Source: Lacipirellula parvula (GTDB taxonomy: Bacteria; Planctomycetota; Planctomycetia; Pirellulales; Lacipirellulaceae). Taken from it: a stretch of 64,000 nucleotides of DNA. Below, piece by piece: positions 20,277 to 33,187 of this stretch; position 1 is the first letter of the stretch, and every line of letters begins with the position of its first letter. A program made the position numbers and the translations under genes. The stretch lies in contig NZ_AP021861.1 of the NCBI RefSeq assembly GCF_009177095.1, positions 682,001 through 746,000 of the forward strand, in the 5' to 3' direction. The notes below the pieces were generated by a model, which saw only the letters and a list, made by a program, of their open reading frames with translations, searched no databases and was not told where the DNA came from.

Positions 20277-22934
20277 ATGAGGAGTGAGAGCCGTCGAACG
20301 TCGAGCGCTAGTGCTGCGCTATGCCGATGTTGGCTGCTCCTGCTCTTGATCTTCGCTCCCGTGGCGTCGCTTGCCGGCTGCGGCGGGTGCAGTCAGCAAA
20401 CCCCGGCCCAGCAAGCGGCCGAACGCAAAGCTCGCGAGCTCAAAGAAATCGAGGAAGCGAAGAAGCGGCTCGAAGAGGAACGCAAGAGCAAGCCGTTCAT
20501 CGTCGGACATCTGACGCCCCTGTTGAGCGAGAATCTCATCGAGGCGGAAGCGGGCGTCTCGCTGCGATTGGCGAAGCCGGGACACTGGGCGACGACGGTT
20601 CAGCCGATGAAGGCGAACCTTGGCGACTTCGAGGGACGCATCACCGTCGCCGCCGTCGATGCCCGCGGCAACCCTCTGCCGATTCCCCACACCTCGTACG
20701 AGATGACCTCAAGTCGCCCCGCCGTGCTCGCGAAGGGAATCTCGAAGCGCGTAGAGAACGAACTGCTCGTCCCCAGTGCCGTCGAGAAGTTGAACGTTTC
20801 CTCGGAGCTGATCAACGCCGGCGGCAGCATTGCCGACGCGCCGGCGACCGAAGCGTGGACGCTGATGCCGTCGCATCAGTATTTCCTCATGGTGCTCGCC
20901 CGCGAGCCAACGCGATATGCGTTCCTGAAAGTCACTGACTCGGTGCAAGCTCCTTACGAAGACATCAACGGCACGGAGTTGCCTCACTACCGCGTCGTGC
21001 TCGCCGACGGTAACAAGCCGCTGCCGTTGCCGCCGAACGTGCTGACGTGGACGAGCGTCGCTTACGTCGTGTGGGATGAGGTGAATCTCGACCAACTCGA
21101 TCCCTCGCAGCGCGAGGCGCTCGTCGATTGGATTCACTGGGGGGGCCGGCTGATCATCAACGGCCCCGATTCGCTCGACGCGCTGCGGGGAAGTTTTCTG
21201 AAAGAATATCTTCCGGCGGATGCGGGCGAGCGGACGACGTTCGATCTGCAGTCGCTGGAAGAGTTCTCCACTGGCTGGGGCGCGCGAGCGAACGGCAAGC
21301 CGACGGCGGCGATCTCCGTCACGCGGCCGTGGTCGGGCGTCGAGTTGCAACCACGGCCCGGCGCCAAGGCGTTGCCATTCGCCGACAAGTTGTTCTACGA
21401 GCGTTCGGTTGGCGCGGGGAGCATCGTCGTCTCTGCGGTGCAACTGGCGGAGCGCGACCTGGTGAACTGGCCTGGATTCGACGGCTTCTTGAACGGCGCC
21501 CTGCTCCGCCGCCCGCCGCGAGAATTCAGCGTGGAGGAGGGTGGCGCTTGGACGGGGTTGCAAACGCGTTGGGCTGGCGCTCGCGACCGCGTCCGCGACG
21601 CTCACTTCACGACGCCGCTGCGGTGGTTCGCCCGTGACGCCGCGACGAAGGCGAACGCTCGCAACGTTTCCGGCCCCGTCGATAGCTCTGCGAACGCACA
21701 ATTTACCTACCCAATGAACGCCCAATTCGCCGAGACGCGGCTCGAGGTCGATCGCGCGGGCGGGCTCGGCGATTGGGATGAGTTTGGTCCCGTGGCCACT
21801 GCCGGCCGAGACTCGTTGGTCGAAGCCGCTGGCGTCCGCGTGCCGGCCGCCAGTTTCGTGCTCATCTGCCTGGCGATTTACCTGGTTGTGCTTGTGCCGC
21901 TCAATTGGATGGTCTTCTACGCGCTGGGCCGCGTCGAGTGGGCTTGGATCAGTGCACCGCTCATTGCGTTGGTCGGCACGCTCGCTGTCGTCCGGCAGGC
22001 GCAGCTTGATATTGGCTTCGTCCGTTCGCAAACCGAGATCGCAGTGATGGAACTGCAGGGCGATTTGCCGCGCGGGCACTTAACACGCTTCACCGCGATC
22101 TATTCGTCGCTCTCCGATACATACGATTTGGAGTTTGAGAACAGCTCAGCCGTCGCCTCGCCGTTTCCACGCGACGATCGTTGGAATCCCGCGATCGGCG
22201 ATGTGTTGTCGACCGTTGCGTTCGAGAAGTACGACCAGCCGCGGTTGCGCGGCGTCGAAGTTTCTTCCGCGACGACGCAGATGATCCACAGCGAACAGAT
22301 GTTGCCGCTCGACGGCCCGATTCGGCTTTCGTCGCAAAGCAACAATCCGCGCCTGCTGCAGGTCGACAATAAGTCGGGCTTCGATTTGACGGACGTGGCG
22401 ATTGTCTTCCGCGATGGTTCTACCGCCGTGGAGCCTGCCGCATCAGATTCTGCCGCAGAAGCGCAGCGGAAGAGTTGGAGCAAGCTAAAAGGCTTTTGGA
22501 TCGGCGACTTGGCGAGCGGCGACGGCCGGTTGCTGCAGAAGCTTGAAACGCTGTCGGTGGCCGAAGGCGAGCTGCCGTTCGCCGAAGAGCGGGCGGCCGC
22601 GAACGAACTGACGAGCCGCAAACCACTAAACGTCGACCCGCTGCTGCGACTGGCGTTCTGGTTCCCGCAGCTTGACGACCCGATCCACGGGGCTCGCGAC
22701 GAGTACCGCCTGATCGGTCGCATTAATAAGGTCCTGCCCGGCAGCGTCGTTTCGCCGAGTGCCTCGCAATCGACTGGTTCGACAGTGGTGATCGCCCACC
22801 TCCGCTTGGGAGAAGCCGCCGCCGCCGAACCCGACCGCAACAGCCCCCGCGACGTGCAGCCGGCTGGGCAAAAGAATGCTTATGAGGAAGAGCCGCCTAC
22901 TGAGGATCCTCCGGCAGAAGAACAGGAACAATAG
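20277..22934 (+). CDS. Large lipoprotein/membrane protein upstream of an ABC ATPase
   Basis: 885 residues. It begins with a signal having a lipobox (VASLAGC, Cys at about 35), then a charged helical segment rich in Lys and Glu. Two transmembrane helices lie at about residues 524-545 (VLICLAIYLVVLVPLNWMVF) and 553-572. The part before the helices contains a region (VAYVVWDEVNLDQL to WGGRLIINGPDSL) like the class I glutamine amidotransferase-like sensor domain of planctomycete ABC-associated membrane proteins. The last 300 residues are probably outside the membrane. The next gene encodes an ABC ATPase, so a role as a regulatory or accessory subunit of an ABC transporter is likely. Family function unknown. 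Confidence 0.75.
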   Translation: MRSESRRTSSASAALCRCWLLLLLIFAPVASLAGCGGCSQQTPAQQAAERKARELKEIEEAKKRLEEERKSKPFIVGHLTPLLSENLIEAEAGVSLRLAKPGHWATTVQPMKANLGDFEGRITVAAVDARGNPLPIPHTSYEMTSSRPAVLAKGISKRVENELLVPSAVEKLNVSSELINAGGSIADAPATEAWTLMPSHQYFLMVLAREPTRYAFLKVTDSVQAPYEDINGTELPHYRVVLADGNKPLPLPPNVLTWTSVAYVVWDEVNLDQLDPSQREALVDWIHWGGRLIINGPDSLDALRGSFLKEYLPADAGERTTFDLQSLEEFSTGWGARANGKPTAAISVTRPWSGVELQPRPGAKALPFADKLFYERSVGAGSIVVSAVQLAERDLVNWPGFDGFLNGALLRRPPREFSVEEGGAWTGLQTRWAGARDRVRDAHFTTPLRWFARDAATKANARNVSGPVDSSANAQFTYPMNAQFAETRLEVDRAGGLGDWDEFGPVATAGRDSLVEAAGVRVPAASFVLICLAIYLVVLVPLNWMVFYALGRVEWAWISAPLIALVGTLAVVRQAQLDIGFVRSQTEIAVMELQGDLPRGHLTRFTAIYSSLSDTYDLEFENSSAVASPFPRDDRWNPAIGDVLSTVAFEKYDQPRLRGVEVSSATTQMIHSEQMLPLDGPIRLSSQSNNPRLLQVDNKSGFDLTDVAIVFRDGSTAVEPAASDSAAEAQRKSWSKLKGFWIGDLASGDGRLLQKLETLSVAEGELPFAEERAAANELTSRKPLNVDPLLRLAFWFPQLDDPIHGARDEYRLIGRINKVLPGSVVSPSASQSTGSTVVIAHLRLGEAAAAEPDRNSPRDVQPAGQKNAYEEEPPTEDPPAEEQEQ

Positions 22935-22941
22935 CGAGGCC

Positions 22942-23017
22942 GTCAGTTGTCCGTGGTCAGTTGTCAGTTGCTTGGGACTTGGACTCGCGAAGAAACAACT
23001 GACAACGGACAACTGAC
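22942..23017. repeat. Inverted repeat of GTCAGTTGTC words
   Basis: GTCAGTTGTCCGTGGTCAGTTG (22942-22963) pairs with CAACTGACAACGGACAACTGAC (22996-23017) with one mismatch. It sits between two genes of one apparent operon, only 17 bases before the ABC ATPase start, so a hairpin here could modulate expression of the second gene. Confidence 0.7.
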
Positions 23018-23033
23018 GACGGACCATCTTCAC

Positions 23034-23960
23034 ATGATCGAACTAAAAAACTTCGGCAAGCAATACGGCGACTTCACCGCCGTCGAGAACCTCAATCTCA
23101 AAATTGAGGCGGGGGAAATGTTCGGCTTCATCGGGCCGAACGGCGCCGGGAAGAGCACGACGATTCGCTTCCTCGCGACGCTGCTCAAGGCGAGCCATGG
23201 CGAGGGGACCGTCAACGGCCACAGCGTGACGAAAGACCCGATCGCCGTGCGGCGGAGCGTCGGCTACATGCCCGACAACTTCGGCGTTTACGACGGCATG
23301 AAGGTCTGGGAGTTTCTCGACTTCTTCGCCGTCGCCTACCAGGTGCCGAAGTCGCGCCGCAAGGCGGTGCTAACCGACGTGCTCGAACTGCTGGACCTCA
23401 CGCACAAGCGGGACGACTTCGTCAACGGCCTGTCGCGCGGTATGAAGCAACGGCTCTGCCTCGCGAAGACGCTCGTGCACGATCCACCTGTACTGATTCT
23501 CGACGAGCCGTCGAGCGGCCTTGACCCGCGGGCTCGCTTGGAAGTGAAGGCGTTGCTCAAAGAATTGCGGCGGATGGGCAAGACGATCCTCATTTCTAGC
23601 CATATCCTCACCGAACTCGCCGACTGCTGCACGTCGATCGGCATCATCGAACGCGGTCAGTTGCTGCTCCACGGGCCAATTGAAAAGGTCTACCGCCAGA
23701 TCCAGCGCAACCGCACGCTCGAGGTCCGCTTCTCCGGCGACCCCGCGGCCGGAGTGAGCTTGATTCGCAGCGATCCGAAGGTGCGGCAGGTGATCGAGGA
23801 TACGCGCAGCTGCACGGTGGAACTCGACGGCGGCGACGACGACGTCCAGCGGCTGCTGCGTCAGCTCGCGCTCGCCGAGTGCGGGCTCGTGTCGTTCGCC
23901 GACAAAGAGCCGACGCTGGAAGACGTGTTCATGCTCGTCACCAAAGGTCTGGTGACTTAA
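23034..23960 (+). CDS. ABC transporter ATP-binding protein
   Basis: 308 residues. Walker A is GPNGAGKST (about 38-46), the signature is LSRGMKQR, Walker B is LILDEPSSGLDP, and the switch His is in ILISSHILTEL. The ATPase domain spans about residues 1-220. The C-terminal 85 residues are the extension found in ATPases of the ABC-2 export or NatA/CcmA type. It powers export or membrane remodelling together with a membrane subunit. No classical ABC-2 permease is seen, and the upstream large membrane protein may be the partner. The start is ATG 23034; an in-frame region upstream overlaps a long inverted repeat and is unlikely to be coding. Confidence 0.9.
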   Translation: MIELKNFGKQYGDFTAVENLNLKIEAGEMFGFIGPNGAGKSTTIRFLATLLKASHGEGTVNGHSVTKDPIAVRRSVGYMPDNFGVYDGMKVWEFLDFFAVAYQVPKSRRKAVLTDVLELLDLTHKRDDFVNGLSRGMKQRLCLAKTLVHDPPVLILDEPSSGLDPRARLEVKALLKELRRMGKTILISSHILTELADCCTSIGIIERGQLLLHGPIEKVYRQIQRNRTLEVRFSGDPAAGVSLIRSDPKVRQVIEDTRSCTVELDGGDDDVQRLLRQLALAECGLVSFADKEPTLEDVFMLVTKGLVT

Positions 23961-24066: not shown

Positions 24067-24585
24067 TTAAGTGATCCCAGCCAACTCGCGTACCTTTGCG
24101 GCAATCGCCGCGATATCGCTGCGCGGCACGCGCGGAATCGGCAAGTCAATCGCGTCGTCGCTCACAATCGCCCGGATCTGCGGATCGTGCGGCGCCATCG
24201 GCTCTGAACCGACTACGGCTCGCCAAACCTCGATCTTCGTTCCCTCGCAGGTCGTGTCTCCTTCGACGAGCACAAGATCGCAGCCGGCGAAGTGGGGCGC
24301 AAATTCCGCGTATCGATCGTAGGTTCCCTTTGCAGCCGCTTCCTCGCGCGGCCGCTCCGGCGGCCAGAAGACGGCGTTCATCGACCGCGACAAGATCGCC
24401 GAAACGCAGGCCCCTGCTTCGCGATGCCGGTGCGAATCTTTTCCTGGCGTATCGAGTTCATGCGCGTGATGCGTGTGTTTGATCGTGCCGACCCGCAGCC
24501 CGCACGCCGTGAGATGGGCGACGAGCTCGACCATCAGCGTCGTCTTACCGTTGTTCTTGCGGCCAAGGATATGGATGCGCTTCAT
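24067..24585 (-). CDS. mobB: Molybdopterin-guanine dinucleotide biosynthesis protein B
   Basis: 172 residues. The P-loop is GRKNNGKTT (8-16), close to the N-terminus as in MobB. It is followed by GLRVGTIKHTHH, the segment HELDTPGKDSHRHREAGA typical of this family, and the Walker B-like DLVLVEGDTTCEGTKIEVWR. MobB is a GTP-binding accessory factor that helps attach GMP to molybdenum cofactor. No other molybdenum cofactor gene is near, so its partner MobA must be elsewhere. It is transcribed divergently from the AAA ATPase operon across about 200 bases. Confidence 0.9.
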   Translation of the reverse strand: MKRIHILGRKNNGKTTLMVELVAHLTACGLRVGTIKHTHHAHELDTPGKDSHRHREAGACVSAILSRSMNAVFWPPERPREEAAAKGTYDRYAEFAPHFAGCDLVLVEGDTTCEGTKIEVWRAVVGSEPMAPHDPQIRAIVSDDAIDLPIPRVPRSDIAAIAAKVRELAGIT

Positions 24586-24790
24586 CGATCGAAATAGCGA
24601 AATTTGCAGAGAGGATCAGCGATTGCGGATTGCCGGGAGGCTCGTTTTGCGGGCGATTTGCTGCGATCGGTCGGGTTGACGCGATTGTGCGGGCACGCCT
24701 CAAGATAAGCGTCGCGGCTCCCCTACGGTATTCCACTTGTAACCTAAGTTTACATCACTGGAGATTGTTGCTCCCCCTGGCGGACATCGT

Positions 24791-26113
24791 ATGCGCGCAA
24801 GCACCCTGGAACCACCCAAAGACGACCTGCTCGAGTCGCTGCTAGGCGGCGATGCGTACCGACCTCCCGAGCCGCAAACGCTCGAGGAAACGGGCCTATC
24901 GCCCGTGGTGATTGAGACGCTCATCCTGAAGTATTTGCTGCAGGTCGGCTCGGCCTCGGGCCGCGAGATCGCCGCCCGCATTTGCCTGCCGTTCCGTCTG
25001 CTGGAAGAGCTGCTGCTTAGCCTCCGCAGTCGGCAAATGGTGGTTCACAAAGGCCAGTCGCAATTGAGCGACTACTACTACGCCCTCACCGACGTCGCTC
25101 AGGAGCGTGCTCGCGTGGCGGCTGCGGCCTGCGCTTACGTCGGCCCGGCGCCAGTGCCGCTCGACGACTACATCATGTCGGTCGAGGCCCAAACGATTCG
25201 CGCTGAAGCGGTCCGCCGTCGCGACGTCGAACAGGCCTTCGGCGACGTCTCGGTCGACGGCCCGACGATGGAACTCCTGGGGCCCGCGATCAACTCCGGA
25301 GCCGGCCTGTTCCTCTACGGCTTCCCCGGCAACGGTAAGACGACGATCGCCAAGCGGATCACGCGCTGCTTCGGCCAGCACATGTGGATTCCGCAGACGA
25401 TCGTTGAGGATGGCCAGATCGTCAAGTTGTATGACGCAGCGTTCCACGAAGCGGTGCGGACGACCGAGTCGAATATCATCAAAGTCGCTGCTCACGATCA
25501 ACGGTGGATCAAAATTCGCCGCCCCACGGTCGTCGTCGGCGGCGAGTTGACGATGGACAGCCTCGAAATTCGTCACGACGCGAACACCAACGTCAGCGAA
25601 GCGTCGCTGCAAATGAAGAGCAACGGCGGCTGCTTGCTGATCGACGACTTCGGTCGGCAGCGGATCGAGCCTGCGGCGCTCCTTAATCGCTGGATCGTCC
25701 CGCTCGAAAATCGACACGACTACCTGACGCTCGCCACTGGCAAGAAGATCCAAGTTCCGTTCGATCAGCTGATCATCTTTTCGACCAATCTCGAACCGAC
25801 AGATCTGGCTGACGAGGCGTTCTTGCGGCGTATTCCCTACAAGATCGAGATCGTCGACCCTTCGATCGAAGAGTTCCGCAAGCTCTTCCAGTCAGCTTGC
25901 CTGGCGATGGGCTGCCCCTATCAGCCGCAGGCGGTCGATTACCTCGTACAGACCCATTACCGGCCGTATGGCCGACCGCTCCGCCGTTGTCATGCTCGCG
26001 ACTTGCTCGCGGCGGCGGCGAATTACTGTGTGTTCAACGACACGCCGATGCAGTTGACGCCGCAGCTGCTCGACCGCGTCGCCAAGAGTTACTTCACCGC
26101 CCTCAACGGTTAA
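24791..26113 (+). CDS. AAA-type ATPase with N-terminal winged-helix-like region
   Basis: 440 residues. Residues about 34-105 look like a winged helix (ILKYLLQVGSASGREIAARICLP ... VVHKGQSQLSDYYYALTDVAQ). The AAA module follows: Walker A GFPGNGKTT (177-185), Walker B CLLIDDFGRQ (about 279-288), sensor-like IIFSTNLEP, and an Arg-rich EAFLRRIPYKIEI segment fitting the arginine finger. A C-terminal helical lid ends at YFTALNG. It is a cytoplasmic ATPase remodelling some protein or complex; I know no tested function for this family. It is the first gene of an operon with the kinase-tubulin fusion (gap 22 bases) and the FHA-EAL gene. Start ATG at 24791, without a strong ribosome-binding site. Confidence 0.85.
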   Translation: MRASTLEPPKDDLLESLLGGDAYRPPEPQTLEETGLSPVVIETLILKYLLQVGSASGREIAARICLPFRLLEELLLSLRSRQMVVHKGQSQLSDYYYALTDVAQERARVAAAACAYVGPAPVPLDDYIMSVEAQTIRAEAVRRRDVEQAFGDVSVDGPTMELLGPAINSGAGLFLYGFPGNGKTTIAKRITRCFGQHMWIPQTIVEDGQIVKLYDAAFHEAVRTTESNIIKVAAHDQRWIKIRRPTVVVGGELTMDSLEIRHDANTNVSEASLQMKSNGGCLLIDDFGRQRIEPAALLNRWIVPLENRHDYLTLATGKKIQVPFDQLIIFSTNLEPTDLADEAFLRRIPYKIEIVDPSIEEFRKLFQSACLAMGCPYQPQAVDYLVQTHYRPYGRPLRRCHARDLLAAAANYCVFNDTPMQLTPQLLDRVAKSYFTALNG

Positions 26114-26135
26114 CCAACCACCGCTGGACGCTTTC

Positions 26136-29100
26136 GTGAACGATCCCGACCGCCAACCGCCGACATTGCCTGGCTACACGCTGACCGCGCGCCTCGGTGC
26201 GGGCGGCTATGGCGAGGTTTGGCTTGCGCAGGCGCCGGGCGGCGTGCCGAAGGCCGTGAAGTTCATCTTTGGCTCGTTCAACGACCGTCGCGCGGAGCAT
26301 GAACTGCGCGCTCTGCATCGCATTAAGTCGGTGCGGCATCCATTCTTGCTGTCGCTTGAGCGGATTGAAGTGGCCGACGACCGACTGGCGATCGTCACGG
26401 AACTCGCTGATTCGAGCTTGAAAGATCGCTACGACGAATGCCGTCGGCAAGGCCTGCCCGGTATTCCGCGCGCAGAACTGCTCGGCTACATGCACGATGC
26501 GGCCGAAGCGCTCGACTATCTCAGCGAACGGCATTCGCTGCAGCATCTCGATGTGAAGCCCGAAAATCTGTTGCTGGTCGCCGGCCATGTGAAGGTCGCT
26601 GACTTCGGCCTGGTGAAAGAGGTCGGCAAGACGCAGGCGTCGCTTGTCGGCGGATTGACGCCGCTCTACTCGTCGCCCGAAGTCTTCCAAGGCATGCCGG
26701 GGGCCCGCAGCGACCAGTACAGCCTCGCGGTCGTCTACCAGGAAATGCTCACCGGCATGCCGCCGCTGGCTGGCGCCAATGCCGCGGAGCTGACGATGCA
26801 GCATCTGCAGGGCGAGGCAAACCTCACGCCACTGCCGATGCAAGATCGGTTTGCCGTCGCCCGCGCACTTGCGAAAGATCCGACGCAGCGATTTTCGAAC
26901 TGCTGCGCGATGGTCGATGCGCTGCTCGCTCAGCCCGGTGACGGTGGTCACGCGACAGGCGAGTCGCAGTTCGCAGGGGCCGAGATTGCAGATGAGCGAA
27001 CCTTTGGCGATTTCGGTTCCGCACTCCCGGAACGCCGCGCCGAACAACGGCCTGGGCCGATTGAACCACTGTTCGCCGGTCCGCATGCCGAGACGCAGTT
27101 TGAAGGGGCATGGGGCGAGCCTGCCAGCGACTGGGGCGCGGCTGAATCGTCGCCTGCCGAACCTGCGGAGCCGCAGTGCGTTGAATCGGTCGAGTTCAAC
27201 ACAGCTGATTTTGCCAGTCGCCCGACGCTAGTGATTGGCATCGGCGGGGCTGCCGCTAGCGTCATGCGACGTTTCCGGGCACGGTTGGTGCGCGAGCTAA
27301 GCGAAGAAGCCGCCGAGGCGGTGCAGTTGCTGCTCTTCGACAGCGATCCGCGCGAGATCGCCGCGGCGATGCAACCGAACGGGCGGTCCGCGCTCCGACC
27401 AAGCGAAGCGCTGGCGTTGCCGCTGCGTCGGCCGCAAGAATATCGCGAAGACTCCGCGCTGCTTATGCGGTGGCTGAGCCGTCGCTGGCTCTACAACATT
27501 CCGAAATCGCTGCGGACCGAGGGGCTGCGGCCGCTCGGACGGCTCGCGTTCGTCGATCACGCGCAGCGCGTCGAAGAACGGCTGATTGCCGCGATCCAGG
27601 GAGCGGTCTCCGCCAGCGGCGCCATTCAAGGTCCGCCGCGGATCTACCTAGTCTCGAGCGTGTCGGGCGGCACCGGCAGCGGAATGTCGCTCGACCTCGG
27701 CTACGCCGTGCGTGCGGCGCTGGCGACGCTCGGTATCGACAATGGCGAAGTTGTCGGGCTCTTTCTCCATTCCACCCCGCGCGACCCGAGGCAGGCGGAG
27801 CTTGCCCGCGTGAACTCGTGCGCCTGGCTACGCGAATACAATCACTATCATCGCGCCGCCGGCGCCTACCCAGGCGACGAAGCTTGTGGCTTGGCGCCGC
27901 TCGCACCGACGTGCAAGGCGTTCGATGCGGCGTACTTCCTCAACCTGGGGAGCGGACTCGAGGACGCGGCGTGGAGCGAAGCGATCGCCGACGTCGCGGA
28001 ATACCTTTACCTCGACGCGGTGACGCCCGCACAACGATTCTTCGACGCCTGTCGGAACCAGGCTGAACCTGGCGAAGAGGCCGTCTTGCGGTCGTTCGCC
28101 GTGACGACGGTTTCCGCAGCCGCAGACGACGCGATCGACGCGGCAGCTCAGCTCATCAGCCGAGCCGTCATCTGTCGCTGGCTAGGCCTGAAAGTGGGCG
28201 GCGACGGCGCCAAGTTCGCGGCAACCGCGGCTGACGCTTCAGCTGGCGGCAAGCTTCCAAATCTCGAACAACTGGCGTCGCAAACCCGCGAGCTGATCGC
28301 ACAAGCGATCGGCGTCGTCGCTGAACGCCAACCCGCAGAAGAACTCGGGCTGCGCGAGCGGATCGCCGCGATCGACGCCGACTTCATACCGCCCGACGAT
28401 CGACCCGGTGCATTCGCGGGTGGCCGGCCGTTGGAAGAAGTCGCCGCGCCCATCGCTCAGCGAATCGCCGCGACGATGGCGGCCGAAGTGCTGGGGCAGA
28501 TCAACGCGTTCGGCCAACGCTTACCGGGAGCTGAACTCGCGATCGGCGGCTGGCGCGGCGAACTGCAGCAGCTTGACGCCGAGGCGTCGCGGCTAGCGTC
28601 GGCACTCGCGCAGCAAGCAGCAGCGATGGCCATGCAGATCGATCGTTGGCAGCGCGAGCGAACGAGCGCCAGCGCCACCACAGCCCGCGAGCAAGAGCTG
28701 TGCGAAGGCTACCGCGGGCTCCGCACGGACCAGCATTCGCTCGTGGCGGCGGCGTTGGTCGCCAAGCGACTGCTGGCCGAGTTGCGTGCGGTCGGCGATC
28801 GCACCGGCGAACTCGCACGGCATCTCAAGGGAATGCTCGCTCGGTTCCCAGCGCCAGCCGAAGAGATCGAACAGGGCGCTTTTGCCGAACTCGTGGCGAT
28901 GCAACTCGGGTCGCTCGGCGAGCGCGTCGACGAGCGGTTGGAACAAACATTCATCAATCCATCGGGCGGGCTGATTGCCGTCACGATGGGGAGCCCGCGG
29001 GTGCGCGACCAACTGCTCGCTGAACTAGCGAAACTGGCGACGCGACAAGCCGAGCAACTGGCAAGCTCGCCCTCGTTTGCTGCAGGCGCATCGTTCGTCG

Positions 29101-29483
29101 AAGCGGCTGTTGGCGGCAGCGACGGCGTCGACGCAAGCCAATATCCCGCGGTGTTGCCGGTGGGCTCGACGTACGCTGTCCTCGAAACTCGCCCCAGCGC
29201 TGTGGCGGGACTCGCGGTGCAGCAAGCAAGCGCCGACGGTATGACGACGCTCGTCGGCGTCGGTTCCCAGACAGTTCGCTGCATTGAATCGTGGAATCTC
29301 TCGCCGTCGCGGACGGCGTTCGAGTTGGTCGATCGTCGCCGCGATTGCCTGGAGTTCGCCGATCGAGTGAGCAGTCGCTGCGACGTCGATTGGACGCCGT
29401 TGCTTGCCCCGCCGCGTCGCGTGCCTGCGCCGGCTGCCGTTTCGTTTACTGCATCGCCGATGGCGATGACGCAAGTCTTGTAG
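26136..29483 (+). CDS. Ser/Thr protein kinase fused to tubulin-like GTPase domain
   Basis: 1115 residues. N-terminal eukaryote-like kinase: glycine loop GAGGYGEVW (21-29), Lys42 in AVKF, catalytic loop HLDVKPEN (137-144) and DFG (156-158). The usual Arg before the catalytic Asp is Leu, so it is a non-RD kinase. A linker rich in Glu, Ala and Pro spans about 265-362. The second module (about 363-700) starts TLVIGIGGAAASVMRRF and has the tubulin/FtsZ-like GTP signature SVSGGTGSGMSLDLGYAVR (507-525), matching the bacterial 'tubulin-like' (Tubulin_2) family. The last 400 residues are helical with Gln/Ala-rich stretches. A role in a phosphorylation-regulated GTPase polymer or scaffold is inferred. 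GTG start, in an operon with the AAA and FHA-EAL genes. Confidence 0.88.
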   Translation: MNDPDRQPPTLPGYTLTARLGAGGYGEVWLAQAPGGVPKAVKFIFGSFNDRRAEHELRALHRIKSVRHPFLLSLERIEVADDRLAIVTELADSSLKDRYDECRRQGLPGIPRAELLGYMHDAAEALDYLSERHSLQHLDVKPENLLLVAGHVKVADFGLVKEVGKTQASLVGGLTPLYSSPEVFQGMPGARSDQYSLAVVYQEMLTGMPPLAGANAAELTMQHLQGEANLTPLPMQDRFAVARALAKDPTQRFSNCCAMVDALLAQPGDGGHATGESQFAGAEIADERTFGDFGSALPERRAEQRPGPIEPLFAGPHAETQFEGAWGEPASDWGAAESSPAEPAEPQCVESVEFNTADFASRPTLVIGIGGAAASVMRRFRARLVRELSEEAAEAVQLLLFDSDPREIAAAMQPNGRSALRPSEALALPLRRPQEYREDSALLMRWLSRRWLYNIPKSLRTEGLRPLGRLAFVDHAQRVEERLIAAIQGAVSASGAIQGPPRIYLVSSVSGGTGSGMSLDLGYAVRAALATLGIDNGEVVGLFLHSTPRDPRQAELARVNSCAWLREYNHYHRAAGAYPGDEACGLAPLAPTCKAFDAAYFLNLGSGLEDAAWSEAIADVAEYLYLDAVTPAQRFFDACRNQAEPGEEAVLRSFAVTTVSAAADDAIDAAAQLISRAVICRWLGLKVGGDGAKFAATAADASAGGKLPNLEQLASQTRELIAQAIGVVAERQPAEELGLRERIAAIDADFIPPDDRPGAFAGGRPLEEVAAPIAQRIAATMAAEVLGQINAFGQRLPGAELAIGGWRGELQQLDAEASRLASALAQQAAAMAMQIDRWQRERTSASATTAREQELCEGYRGLRTDQHSLVAAALVAKRLLAELRAVGDRTGELARHLKGMLARFPAPAEEIEQGAFAELVAMQLGSLGERVDERLEQTFINPSGGLIAVTMGSPRVRDQLLAELAKLATRQAEQLASSPSFAAGASFVEAAVGGSDGVDASQYPAVLPVGSTYAVLETRPSAVAGLAVQQASADGMTTLVGVGSQTVRCIESWNLSPSRTAFELVDRRRDCLEFADRVSSRCDVDWTPLLAPPRRVPAPAAVSFTASPMAMTQVL

Positions 29484-29492
29484 ATCGCATCG

Positions 29493-30626
29493 ATGAAGAA
29501 CTCGCCGACTATTTCGCCGCGCAACGACGTGACTTGGCTGCTGACAGGACAGCTGGGAGCGGACCAGGTTGCGCGCACCGTGACGATCGCGAGTTGGCCC
29601 TTCGTCATTGGACGCAGCCCCAGCGTGACGCTGACGATTGCCAGCCCGACGGTATCGAGCCAGCATGCCGAGTTGCGTTTGGAAGATGGCGGATTGCTCG
29701 TCCGCGATTTGGGAAGCACCAACGGCACCTTCGTCAACGGCACGCGCGTCGCGGGCGAAGCCGCGGTCCATGCCGGAGACCTGTTGCAGATTGCCGAGAT
29801 CGTGTTCCGCGTAACCGAGCAGCGCGGCTACGTAGATTGCAAAACAATCGCGGGCGACTCGACCGATCGCGCGCTAGCGATGATTCAGTTCGACAAACTC
29901 ATTGCCGAACGCGCCGTGCTGCCGCACTACCAGCCGATTGTGGAGATGAACAGCCAACAGACGATTGGCTTTGAGGTACTGGGGAGAAGTCCGCTGTTCG
30001 GGCTCAAGACGCCGCACGCGATGTTCTCGGCGGCGGCGTTGCTTGATCTTGAGGGCGAACTCAGTCGGATGCTGCGCGACGAAGGGGTCCGTTCAGCCCT
30101 GTCGCTGCCCTCCAATCCTTTGGTGTTCGTGAACACCCATCCCGCCGAGTTGGAAGATGCGTCGCTGCTGGAGAAGTCGCTACGCGAACTGCGCGCAGCG
30201 GCCCCGCGTGCGGCTCTCGTCTTAGAGATTCACGAAGCCGCGGCGACCAGCGTTCCGCAAATGCGAGCGTTACGGCAGCTACTCACCGAACTCGGCATGC
30301 AACTCGCTTACGACGACTTCGGCGCCGGGCAAGCAAGGTTGGTGGAACTCGGCGACGCCCCGCCCGATTTTCTCAAGTTCGACATCCAGCTGGTGCGCGG
30401 GATCGACCACGCGAGCGCCGAACGGCAAAGAATGCTGGAAAGTTTAGTGAAGATTGTCGCCGATCTCGGCATCGTCAGCCTGGCCGAAGGCGTCGAGACG
30501 GCTGAAGAGCACGCCGTCTGCAAGGGCATGGGCTTCGTTTACGGCCAAGGGTTCTACTACGGCACGCCCGCATCGGCCGGGACGTTCACGACGTGCGAGG
30601 CCCGCGTCACGCCCTGGCGACTATAG
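29493..30626 (+). CDS. FHA domain - EAL domain protein
   Basis: 377 residues. The FHA domain (about 30-110) has Arg41 in FVIGRSPSV, Ser55 and His58 in SSQHAEL and Asn77 in GSTNGTFVNG, all typical phosphothreonine-binding residues. The EAL domain (about 135-370) has YQPIV, EVLGR (161-165; the EAL position), the FVNTHP Asn, LVLEIHE, YDDFGAGQARL, FLKFD, LAEGVET and the final YGQGFYYG. The metal-binding and catalytic residues needed to cut cyclic di-GMP appear present. FHA plus EAL in one chain suggests that a phosphorylated partner, perhaps the kinase encoded 9 bases upstream, controls c-di-GMP breakdown. No REC, GGDEF or membrane part is seen. Confidence 0.88.
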   Translation: MKNSPTISPRNDVTWLLTGQLGADQVARTVTIASWPFVIGRSPSVTLTIASPTVSSQHAELRLEDGGLLVRDLGSTNGTFVNGTRVAGEAAVHAGDLLQIAEIVFRVTEQRGYVDCKTIAGDSTDRALAMIQFDKLIAERAVLPHYQPIVEMNSQQTIGFEVLGRSPLFGLKTPHAMFSAAALLDLEGELSRMLRDEGVRSALSLPSNPLVFVNTHPAELEDASLLEKSLRELRAAAPRAALVLEIHEAAATSVPQMRALRQLLTELGMQLAYDDFGAGQARLVELGDAPPDFLKFDIQLVRGIDHASAERQRMLESLVKIVADLGIVSLAEGVETAEEHAVCKGMGFVYGQGFYYGTPASAGTFTTCEARVTPWRL

Positions 30627-30702
30627 GCCCGAGGCTTGGCAACCGTTATCTTGGAGGGAACTTTTGCTTTCCCCCACAGGCGGTCTGCTGAGAGGAACCT
30701 CG

Positions 30703-31956
30703 ATGAAGCCGTGGTCGTTAATTGTCACCGTCGCCCTGTCGTTCGTTGCCTCTGCGGCATGGGCTCAGCCCGCGATTGCTCCCGAAGAAGGCCGCCCTGT
30801 CGTCATGTGGGAAGACGCGCGGCCGTTAGTCGGACAGGTCGCGTACGTTTGCGGCAAAGTGATCGGCGTGCCGACCGTCGGCAAGATCACCTTCATCAAC
30901 TTCGACGCGCAGCGGCCCGTTCGCTTTGCCGGCGTGATCTTCTCAGACAAGTTGACGAATTTCCCGAAGCCCCCCAGCGAAATGTACAACGGCAAGATCG
31001 TCAAAATCCGCGGCACGGTTTCGATGTTCAAGGACCAACCGCAGATTGTGGTGACGAGTCCCGAGCAGATTGAGATCCTCGACTCGATGCCGAAGACGAC
31101 GAAGCCGAAGCAAAACGCGGCGATCGCTTCGAAGCCAGGCGAAGTCGTCGTGGCGGCGTATAACATTCTCAATCTGTTCGACGAGCATGACGACCCCTAC
31201 AAGGAAGATGAGGGCACGCCAGCCAAGCCACGCGCTCAATTGGAGCACTTGGCGGCAAGCATTCGTGCACTCAACGCCGACGTGATCGCCGTCGAGGAAG
31301 TCGAGAATCGGTTTTACTTGGAACGGTTCGTCAATACGTTCCTGCCCGAGATGGGCTACCGCGACGTGGTGCTGTTCGAAGGCAACGACGGCCGCGGCAT
31401 CGACGTCGGATTAATTTCGCGCATCCCCGTCGGCGAAGTCCGTTCGCGGCGTCATCTGCGCTTCGAGGGACACGACGGCGGCGAAGCTCGCTTCAATCGC
31501 GATGTGCTGGCGGTGACGCTCGAACCAAAGGATGCGAAGCCGTTTGAGGTGTGGGTCGTTCACTTGAAGAGCAACTCGGGCGGCCGAGAGGCGGCCGAAC
31601 CAATCCGGCTTGCCGAAGCCCGCGAAGTCCGCCGTTTGCTCGACGCAGATCTGGCCGAGAATCCCGAGGCCCGCATCATCGTCACCGGCGACTTCAACGA
31701 CACGCCGGAGAGCGCCACGCTGCAGACGATCGTCGGCAACGGCGATAAGGCGCTCTGGTCGGCGGGCAGCGACCAGCAAGACCCCGAAGCGGTGACCTAC
31801 AACACGGGCCAGTACCGCTCGGTCATCGACTTCATTCTCTGCTCGCCCGCGATGCAAAAGCAGTACATCAAGGGCTCGCTCCGCATGCCGCAAGGTTCGA
31901 TCGAATCGAGCGGTTCGGATCACAATCCGATCTCGGCGACGTTCAAGCTGAACTGA
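30703..31956 (+). CDS. Secreted EEP-family protein with OB-like N-terminal domain
   Basis: 417 residues. A signal peptide (LIVTVALSFVASAAWA) is followed by about 110 residues resembling an OB-fold nucleic-acid-binding domain (GKVIGVPTVGKITFINFDA ... GKIVKIRGTVSMFKDQPQIV). The EEP domain begins VVVAAYNILNLFD and has VIAVEEVENR, IDVGLISRI, VVHLKSNSGG, IVTGDFNDTPES and the closing SSGSDHNPISATF. This order fits a secreted nuclease like those attached to OB domains; DNA or RNA is the likely substrate. AGAGGA lies six bases before the ATG. It follows the FHA-EAL gene by 76 bases, so co-transcription is possible but its export signal suggests an independent role. Confidence 0.86.
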   Translation: MKPWSLIVTVALSFVASAAWAQPAIAPEEGRPVVMWEDARPLVGQVAYVCGKVIGVPTVGKITFINFDAQRPVRFAGVIFSDKLTNFPKPPSEMYNGKIVKIRGTVSMFKDQPQIVVTSPEQIEILDSMPKTTKPKQNAAIASKPGEVVVAAYNILNLFDEHDDPYKEDEGTPAKPRAQLEHLAASIRALNADVIAVEEVENRFYLERFVNTFLPEMGYRDVVLFEGNDGRGIDVGLISRIPVGEVRSRRHLRFEGHDGGEARFNRDVLAVTLEPKDAKPFEVWVVHLKSNSGGREAAEPIRLAEAREVRRLLDADLAENPEARIIVTGDFNDTPESATLQTIVGNGDKALWSAGSDQQDPEAVTYNTGQYRSVIDFILCSPAMQKQYIKGSLRMPQGSIESSGSDHNPISATFKLN

Positions 31957-32170: not shown

Positions 32171-33187
32171 ATGCGTTTTTCGGTCCGCCTGTTGTCAGCC
32201 GCTTGCGCCGTCCTCGCCGTTCATGTAGTCCATAGCACCTGCCACGCGCAGTACACCTATGGAATCGACGTCTCCAACTATCAGTCGAGTGCGAACTGGA
32301 CCTCGCTGAAAAACGCGGGCACGATGTTCGCCTTCGTCAAGGCGACCGAAGGCGTTGATTTCATCGACGCCAGCTTCACGAAGCACATGACAAACGCCAG
32401 TAACGCAGGCGTTTACGTCGGTCCTTACCACTTCGGGCGCATCAACAGCAACACGTCGAATCCCAACGACGCGATTGACGAGGCCAATGATTTCGTTGAC
32501 GCGATTGCACCGTACTATCAGCAGCCAGGACGGTTCTTAAGACCGGTGCTCGACGTCGAAAATACTCCCGGCTTGAGTACGACCGCCGCGAACAAAGCGT
32601 ACATCTCCGAATGGGTGCGAGATTTTATCGGAGTGGTGCAGGACCGGCTGGGAATGGATCCAATTATCTATTGCAATACCAGCTACGCCTCGACTTACTT
32701 CACGACGGATCTTACGCAGTACGATCTTTGGGTCGCCAACTACAACTACGCCCCGCCCGCCATTCCGCCCGCCTCGATCGACGGCGTTTGGAACGGCTGG
32801 GATCTCTGGCAGTACACCGACTCGGGCGCCGTTTCCGGAATTACGGGCGGCGTGGATCGCGACGTCTACCAAGGCACGATGGATGAGTTTCTGACGCAAT
32901 TTCTCGCTGTGCCGCCGACCGGCGACTTCAACAAGGATGGCAGCGTCGATGGCAATGATTTCCTTATCTGGCAACGCAATTTGGGACGCACCTCGGGAGT
33001 GTCGCTCGCCACCGGCGATGCGAACGGCGACAAACTGGTGAACGACGCCGATCTCCAAATTTGGAAGACCGGATTCAGCGGAGCGGCGGCCGTTGCCAGC
33101 GTGGCGGCGGTTCCCGAACCGGCGACAATGGCCTTGGCGATGGCCGCGGGTCTGGCGATGCTGAATCTCCGCCGTCGCAGAATGTAG
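32171..33187 (+). CDS. GH25-type lysozyme with dockerin-like repeat and PEP-CTERM tail
   Basis: 338 residues: a signal peptide to about residue 26, then a glycoside hydrolase family 25 (Chalaropsis-type muramidase) domain. Its landmarks are YGIDVSNYQ (catalytic-site Asp), FAFVKATEG, GPYHFGR, PVLDVEN (Asp-X-Glu catalytic pair), PIIYCNTSYA, LWVANYN and WDLWQYTDSG. Dockerin-like units (DFNKDGSVDGNDFLIWQRNL, DANGDKLVNDADLQIWKTGF) and a PEP-CTERM tail (VPEPATMALAMAAG, RRRRM) follow. It should hydrolyse peptidoglycan, either its own or that of other bacteria, while fixed at the cell surface. The gene follows 214 bases of DNA with no recognised element. Confidence 0.9.
   Translation: MRFSVRLLSAACAVLAVHVVHSTCHAQYTYGIDVSNYQSSANWTSLKNAGTMFAFVKATEGVDFIDASFTKHMTNASNAGVYVGPYHFGRINSNTSNPNDAIDEANDFVDAIAPYYQQPGRFLRPVLDVENTPGLSTTAANKAYISEWVRDFIGVVQDRLGMDPIIYCNTSYASTYFTTDLTQYDLWVANYNYAPPAIPPASIDGVWNGWDLWQYTDSGAVSGITGGVDRDVYQGTMDEFLTQFLAVPPTGDFNKDGSVDGNDFLIWQRNLGRTSGVSLATGDANGDKLVNDADLQIWKTGFSGAAAVASVAAVPEPATMALAMAAGLAMLNLRRRRM

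Follow-up and report, generated by a model that had tools for sequence, protein, structure and literature searches.

A co-inherited gene unit of a kinase-tubulin fusion, an FHA-EAL protein and an AAA+ ATPase in Lacipirellula parvula and related planctomycetes

The three genes and their products

A 64,000-nucleotide stretch of Lacipirellula parvula DNA (hereafter the window, positions 682001-746000 of the 6.92-Mb single-contig genome; assembly GCF_009177095.1, contig NZ_AP021861.1) includes three co-directed genes whose products are an AAA+ ATPase, a fusion of a Ser/Thr kinase with a tubulin-like domain, and an FHA-EAL protein. We show here that these genes are a real co-inherited unit within the order, which we take as Pirellulales from the names of related records; the FHA-EAL and AAA partners of the kinase-tubulin fusion are new here. 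Only 22 bases separate the first gene from the second and 9 bases the second from the third. A preliminary description of this DNA, made from the letters alone, had reported an operon of three tightly spaced genes, and the coordinates agree with that layout:

24791-26113, + strand: AAA+ ATPase gene; ATG start, 440 amino acids, winged-helix-like N-terminus followed by the AAA+ domain
26136-29483, + strand: kinase-tubulin gene; GTG start, 1115 amino acids, Ser/Thr kinase fused to an FtsZl1/Tubulin_2 domain
29493-30626, + strand: FHA-EAL gene; ATG start, 377 amino acids

The domains named in that description were likewise recovered, kinase, Tubulin_2, FHA and EAL by Pfam and AAA+ by its motifs and predicted fold. 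In the kinase-tubulin protein, Pkinase covers residues 14-243 (E 7e-29) and Tubulin_2 (PF13809) residues 365-676 (E 1.3e-31; 110.6 bits, the cut-off being 27). The Lys, the alpha-C Glu, the catalytic Asp, the Asn and the DFG Asp on which protein kinases depend are all present (K42, E56, D139, N144 and D156), with HLD in place of HRD, and K42, E56, D139, N144 and the DFG motif each recur in 90% or more of 28 kinase-tubulin proteins. A structural model of residues 353-1115 (mean predicted local distance difference test, pLDDT, 83) has a tubulin-like fold. It matches CetZ (3zid) with a Z score of 24.9 over 302 residues at a root-mean-square deviation (rmsd) of 5.9, and tubulins at Z about 23-24 (BtubA, 2bto, Z 23.6; Foldseek E 3.3e-5).

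The ends aligned to tubulins lie near model residues 9 and 739. In protein numbering, the predicted fold begins at about residue 361, is interrupted by a long helical insert and closes at about residues 1012-1091. Model residues from about 340 to 655 are mostly long helices, among them 443-489 and 497-549; this helical or coiled-coil region was judged from the helices of the model and not with a coiled-coil program. It looks like an insert within the tubulin fold rather than a tail. In an alignment of 45 rows, the region between the conserved flanks that bears the insert is 265-442 residues long in 37, 184-197 in L041, L081 and L082, and only 42-65 in L040, L063 and L068, the rows of L120 and L166 being cut by contig ends. 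The three proteins with the shortest region nevertheless keep the C-terminal block, which supports an insert and not a tail. As for the GTP loop, the FtsZl1 signature is GGGTG[ST]G (Makarova and Koonin, 2010, PMC2875224); the window protein reads SGGTGSG, which departs at the first letter, and the glycines of the loop are conserved throughout the alignment (G511 in 45/45 rows, G512 in 44/45, G516 in 43/45). Tubulin_2 proteins from five other loci, of four genomes outside the order and genome G038, consist by Pfam of Tubulin_2 alone and have no kinase domain. The premise that FtsZ is missing from this genome was borne out: the FtsZ/tubulin family PF00091 gave 0 matches in it, while the control was found in 13 of 14 genomes, and the Tubulin_2 locus is the only tubulin-superfamily match of the genome by Pfam.

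The FHA-EAL protein has an FHA domain at residues 38-100 (E 7e-18) and an EAL domain at residues 136-359 (E 2.4e-39). Eight residues make up the catalytic and metal sites of EAL domains, and alignment to the solved EAL structure 4hjf finds all of them (ENEDDKEQ) in the window protein. The five residues of the FHA phosphopeptide site (RSHNG) are also complete. Among relatives the second of these is variable, while R, H, N and G are kept in 27 of 27 proteins of the first sample and in 21 of 21 of a second set that includes two duplicates of earlier ones. The genome contains five GGDEF matches, eight open reading frames (ORFs) with HD_5 matches and one PilZ match, so cyclic di-GMP (c-di-GMP) signalling exists in it. 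The FHA-EAL protein is its only EAL match; we do not claim it as the sole c-di-GMP phosphodiesterase, given the eight HD_5 ORFs.

The AAA protein stays under every Pfam cut-off (best AAA_5, E 0.0066), and its motifs are a Walker A of GFPGNGKT and a Walker B of LLIDDFG. Its AlphaFold2 model (pLDDT 85) resembles AAA+ structures. The nearest fold is an uncharacterised Pyrococcus protein (PDB 8p49; Z 17.8, 273 residues, rmsd 6.4), on which no literature was found, so that the match gave no function; Lon-type ATPases come next (Z 15.8). Residues 38-99 are modelled as helix, short strand, helix, helix, strand and strand, an order that fits the winged-helix-like N-terminus suggested earlier.

Co-inheritance and two forms of the locus

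We compared 57 genomes of the order, a sample later enlarged to 196, and a phylum-wide draw of 246 genomes. Among the 57, Tubulin_2 was found in 28 (two of them weak matches), EAL in 27 and the AAA family in 49. Kinase fusions account for 28 of the 30 strong Tubulin_2 loci, and an FHA-EAL gene lies alongside every one of these 28 (for L080 this rests on an EAL match and on reading of the FHA part); the AAA gene is adjacent in 17. One strong Tubulin_2 locus, in G038, has neither kinase, EAL nor AAA beside it. The 196 genomes contain 85 strong Tubulin_2 loci, distributed over 80 genomes. Taking neighbour counts in this sample as lower bounds, an EAL match lies within 8 kb of at least 62 of the 85, the chance expectation being about 0.2% per locus, and an AAA gene within 10 kb of at least 60; both are near in at least 44, and neither in seven, among the matches listed. 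EAL is present in 72 of the 80 strong-Tubulin_2 genomes vs. 15 of the 116 others. The co-occurrence search that the preliminary description had proposed thus came out positive in both samples: the three genes travel together.

The unit is far from universal. Tubulin_2 gave no match in 114 of the 196 genomes of the order, nor in 235 of the 246 drawn phylum-wide (125 of the 134 with completeness of 90% or more and contamination of 5% or less). Since most sampled relatives have no match, the protein is not a general replacement of FtsZ.

Two AAA copies are common in the order, a widespread paralogue and the copy associated with kinase-tubulin genes. The paralogue adjoins genes for endonuclease III, dCTP deaminase and aconitase in several genomes (names read from the sequence); one copy lies at G000:C1:2554177-2555439. 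The best named relatives of the window's AAA are mostly from Pirellulales and other planctomycetes, the closest being a Bythopirellula metagenome-assembled genome (73% identity). In the first 57 genomes, a threshold of 56% identity finds the AAA in 25 of 26 strong-Tubulin_2 genomes and in none of 31 others; in the 196, the genomes with a listed match at or above it number 63; all of these have strong Tubulin_2, and none of the 116 others has such a listed match. It was dropped as an orthology rule, as some linked copies reach only 50-53% across the 196 genomes, and a tree was therefore used as well. In this tree of 55 AAA proteins, made by a quick method and in which the Rhizobium and L042/L043 rows were flagged for long branches, one starred clade comprises 19 kinase-tubulin-linked proteins, nine unlinked ones and that of L110, which is linked to FHA-EAL and C3 genes (C3 is described below) and has no kinase-tubulin gene within the stretch covered. 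The nine unlinked proteins are not encoded beside a kinase-tubulin gene and yet come from strong-Tubulin_2 genomes, which indicates that this AAA accompanies the kinase-tubulin protein even when not adjacent to it.

The kinase-tubulin loci occur in two types, of which the second is new here. Our table holds 49 unique loci; named loci were found through the AAA, so that AAA-linked loci are over-represented in it. In type I (25 of 49, the window's locus among them) the FHA-EAL protein keeps the eight catalytic residues, and none of the 25 has a C3 gene. In type II (19 of 49) the EAL domain is a pseudo-EAL, and C3 is present in 18; the nineteenth, L085, stands at the start of its contig. The remaining five have no called FHA-EAL (L080, L105, L127, L126 and L166). 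L080 does have C3, and reading of its sequence finds an FHA domain together with a degenerate EAL. The four C3 copies scanned (L040, L047, L052 and L068) are REC-GGDEF-CBS proteins, REC being over the cut-off in two and weak in two, and the GGDEF motif of C3 is lost in 19 of 19. The GGDEF protein of L064 is shorter, keeps its motif and has weak similarity to CBS; its gene stands in one run with those of an intact FHA-EAL, the AAA and the kinase-tubulin, and at 70 bits to the C3 model it was not counted as C3. Outside the table, L110 has C3 beside an FHA-EAL gene that is cut by the contig end and has one aspartate changed. L086:10850-14200 holds two neighbouring GGDEF genes of the C3 kind, one degenerate and one intact, next to an FHA-pseudoEAL gene. 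Four genomes (G024, G033, G048 and G056) contain loci of both types.

Both types keep R, H, N and G of the FHA site. Judged from these residues, both appear to have kept phosphothreonine reading, and type II seems to have given up c-di-GMP chemistry twice over. The c-di-GMP degradation attributed to the FHA-EAL protein in the preliminary description accordingly suits the window copy, with its eight residues intact, and not the family, as they are lost in 19 of the 27 proteins of the first sample, the intact window copy being one of the 27. A single loss of EAL catalysis is not claimed: the 49-row kinase-tubulin tree, obtained by a quick method with the careful search unfinished, requires five changes for the pseudo state, of which the starred branches force only one.

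Type II FHA-EAL proteins have T-Q-V-M/L motifs in two places, the N-terminus and directly behind the FHA domain (e.g., L047:4070-5233 and L051:7198-8370), and these are possible candidate phosphothreonine sites for the protein's own FHA domain. The TQVM-type motif was picked after looking at the sequences, and its counts are to be taken as a lead only. Type II FHA-EAL proteins contain 24, the mean of 200 shuffles being 4.1 and the maximum 12. No enrichment was found in type I FHA-EAL (2 vs. a shuffled mean of 5.2), kinase-tubulin (27 vs. 25.3), C3 (8 vs. 4.2) or AAA proteins (14 vs. 9.5). The window's kinase-tubulin protein ends in MTQVL and that of L105 has ATQVL near its end, both resembling the FHA-EAL motif.

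Tad-pilus relatives of the ATPase and surroundings of the locus

Relatives of the AAA protein were found on 75 plasmid records, mostly large plasmids of Rhizobium, Sinorhizobium, Burkholderia and others. The 38 rows listed all have E 2e-60 or better, most of them at about 34-38% identity over nearly the whole length. Five of these plasmid loci were viewed (L200-L204, from Rhizobium leguminosarum, two strains of R. etli, Burkholderia pyrrocinia and Paraburkholderia terrae), and in all five the AAA relative is part of a Tad/Flp pilus operon, in one of two positions. Among planctomycetes, the AAA loci L043, L074, L155 and L158 lie beside CpaF or TadB/TadC genes. An uncharacterised AAA+ family thus has members in Tad operons on the alpha- and beta-proteobacterial plasmids viewed and next to Tad genes at the four planctomycete loci. 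This kinship with ATPases of Tad-pilus operons is new here. Those operons share a nearly full-length AAA relative with the window; the window locus, in contrast, has no Tad genes, and its AAA belongs to the separate kinase-tubulin-linked clade. The Tad link of the window's AAA is therefore indirect: the family is tied to type IVc pilus machinery through relatives and not directly through this copy.

Two further features precede the three-gene run:

24586-24790, + strand: intergenic gap before the AAA gene, the expected promoter place for the run
24067-24585, - strand: mobB-like gene, divergent from the AAA gene

A sigma-70-like promoter was sought in this gap and gave no match. The six terminator-like sites in the three-gene stretch are no excess over chance (shuffled mean 6.0). 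The flanking genes look ordinary and encode, besides the mobB-like product, a GldA/DrrA-like ABC ATPase, a nuclease-family protein, a GH25 protein, a GDSL lipase and tryptophan synthase alpha; a Pfam scan of 12 neighbouring window ORFs found no vWA, GTPase or OmpA domain. The neighbours of the relatives' loci were grouped by clustering only and not by domain scan. Upstream of the run, at 20277-23960, an 885-amino-acid protein with weak DUF4350 similarity is followed by the DrrA/GldA-like ABC ATPase gene, a pair not found beside the module in the relatives searched, save for scattered ABC ATPase matches. Directly downstream of FHA-EAL, ORF 30454-31956 encodes an endonuclease/exonuclease/phosphatase-family protein; its called start overlaps the FHA-EAL gene, and the real one is probably later. 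The GH25 (lysozyme-type) protein at 32171-33187 has a dockerin domain and a PEP-CTERM tail.

Possible role of the module

The preliminary description knew of no described system with this set of genes, a statement that proved too wide. Planctomycete fusions of a kinase with FtsZl1, the family of Pfam Tubulin_2, were printed in 2010, when four members with an N-terminal kinase domain were reported (PMC2875224). The family is also covered in PMC9871819 and listed in a Gemmata genome (PMC4672568), and PMC11032199 names a tubulin-like domain as the partner most often found with planctomycete Ser/Thr kinases that are purely cytoplasmic. The FtsZl1 proteins of PMC2875224 share with the window protein the Tubulin_2 domain and a coiled-coil or helical region, and some planctomycete members share the kinase fusion. 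Their usual, though not universal, contexts are vWA, a GTPase, OmpA and kinases, whereas the first three are missing from the ORFs scanned around our locus. The main text of that paper, supplements aside, does not mention FHA or EAL and mentions AAA once (chelatases), while the window's partners are FHA-EAL and AAA+ proteins. A literature search that covered neither supplements, most subscription journals nor preprints found no description of an FHA-EAL protein or of the kinase-tubulin/FHA-EAL/AAA set. The module can also be set beside OdhI/GarA-type FHA regulators, which carry a phosphorylatable tail, OdhI being only a weak FHA-domain match here. Both have an FHA domain, and type II proteins have threonine motifs beside it; here, the FHA is fused to an EAL domain.

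Our leading interpretation, on which we place about even chances, is that the module is a phospho-regulated tubulin-family machine of the envelope or of surface attachment, read by the FHA-EAL protein and served by the AAA. The kinase would phosphorylate threonines on the tubulin-like protein, on the AAA or on the FHA-EAL protein itself, and the FHA domain would dock on the phosphothreonine. At the envelope, the tubulin-like GTPase would assemble, or at least switch with GTP, its helical insert projecting as an arm, and the AAA+ ATPase, of a family embedded elsewhere in Tad-pilus operons, would remodel or dismantle the assembly. In type I, and hence in the window, the EAL domain would hydrolyse c-di-GMP locally and so couple the assembly state to an attach-or-leave signal. 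In type II, the EAL and its partner GGDEF, both without catalytic motifs, may serve as a folded scaffold or sensor. The process served would most likely be an envelope or surface-attachment function found in only part of the order, and not general division.

Several observations weigh against this interpretation. The catalytic acidic motif of the T7 loop of FtsZ and tubulin is NxDxx[DE]-like, and no such conserved motif was found in the 45 rows, where the T7 register was guessed; as it is not recognisable, polymerisation-driven GTP hydrolysis is not to be assumed. Only four of the 116 planctomycete AAA genes gathered, many of them on cut stretches, adjoin Tad genes, and none of these four loci contains a kinase-tubulin gene. 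CpaF, TadB, TadC and CpaB gave no match at 1e-6 in the 64 kb of the window, to which this search was confined. With eight HD_5 ORFs, the FHA-EAL protein need not be the genome's only c-di-GMP phosphodiesterase. The association is also incomplete. G004 (L059) has the AAA beside Tubulin_2 with no kinase match there and no EAL match in its genome; L105 and L127 have no FHA-EAL nearby (L126 and L166 are cut by contig ends); and among the matches listed 17 of the 80 strong-Tubulin_2 genomes have no AAA at 56% identity or more, nine of them having one at 50-53% beside Tubulin_2 and eight having neither.

That the three genes are chance neighbours is refuted by the co-location counts, and we give this practically no weight. 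A more serious alternative, though clearly less likely than the leading interpretation, takes the tubulin-like domain as a non-polymerising GTP-dependent switch or scaffold and the module as a local phospho/c-di-GMP signalling complex. The strong conservation of the FHA and kinase residues and the unrecognisable T7 motif are what it would lead one to expect, and a non-filament FtsZl1 was allowed, as the less likely case, by Makarova and Koonin (2010, PMC2875224); but the model shows a complete tubulin fold, nearest to those of CetZ and tubulins, and the AAA is inherited along with the tubulin-like protein. A substitute for the missing FtsZ in division, budding or cell shape, as read in the preliminary description, appears very unlikely. 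Planctomycetes divide without FtsZ. The absence of PF00091 from a genome in which Tubulin_2 is the sole tubulin-superfamily match would agree with such a role, and a regulated ring could well make use of a kinase and an AAA; against this stand the many genomes of the order and phylum without a Tubulin_2 match, on account of which we set the cell-division reading aside and regard a general role in division or shape as unlikely, and the four genomes with two loci of different type.

A biological-conflict system, anti-phage or similar, related to the tubulin-containing GAP1-N2 GTPase systems is, in our view, rather improbable, although it draws on several observations. Like the module, those systems are multigene and, according to PMC7159879, include tubulin-domain proteins with a C-terminal coiled-coil or helical region; Tubulin_2 is patchily distributed, the AAA has its relatives on 75 plasmid records, and PADLOC defence models include kinases that the kinase domain matches (best mad6, E 1.7e-38). 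These PADLOC matches, however, span the kinase domain alone, and the FHA-EAL protein has none; in NCBIfam, the match to this same kinase falls well short of its cut-off (55.6 of 460 bits). No system-specific PADLOC match was found, just those of the kinase domain and weak ones of the AAA, to its P-loop or N-terminus, so that support for a defence role is generic. In PMC7159879 the tubulin theme is restricted to firmicutes and actinobacteria and has vWA and GTPase partners, unlike the kinase fusion, FHA-EAL and AAA+ of the window, where neither vWA nor GTPase domains were found on the neighbouring ORFs scanned. In addition, several neighbours look housekeeping (MobB, tryptophan synthase alpha), and searches of plasmids with the tubulin part and of phages with the AAA found no match.

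Returning to the envelope and surface-attachment machine, a bolder form of it, which we hold to be doubtful, is that a kinase-controlled tubulin-family machine with a Tad-descended AAA+ governs an adhesive pilus or another envelope structure, and that in one branch GGDEF and EAL form a dead pair that would read kinase signals and not the second messenger. FtsZl1 has been known since 2010, with its function not demonstrated in the literature examined. The locus offers it a small set of co-inherited partners, a tubulin fold predicted to be complete and to carry a long arm as an insert, and a candidate phospho-reader, together with natural variants for comparison, i.e., active vs. dead EAL and proteins with vs. 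without the insert arm. Any polymer built from the one tubulin relative recognisable in this genome would attract wide interest, even with a role in attachment and not in division.

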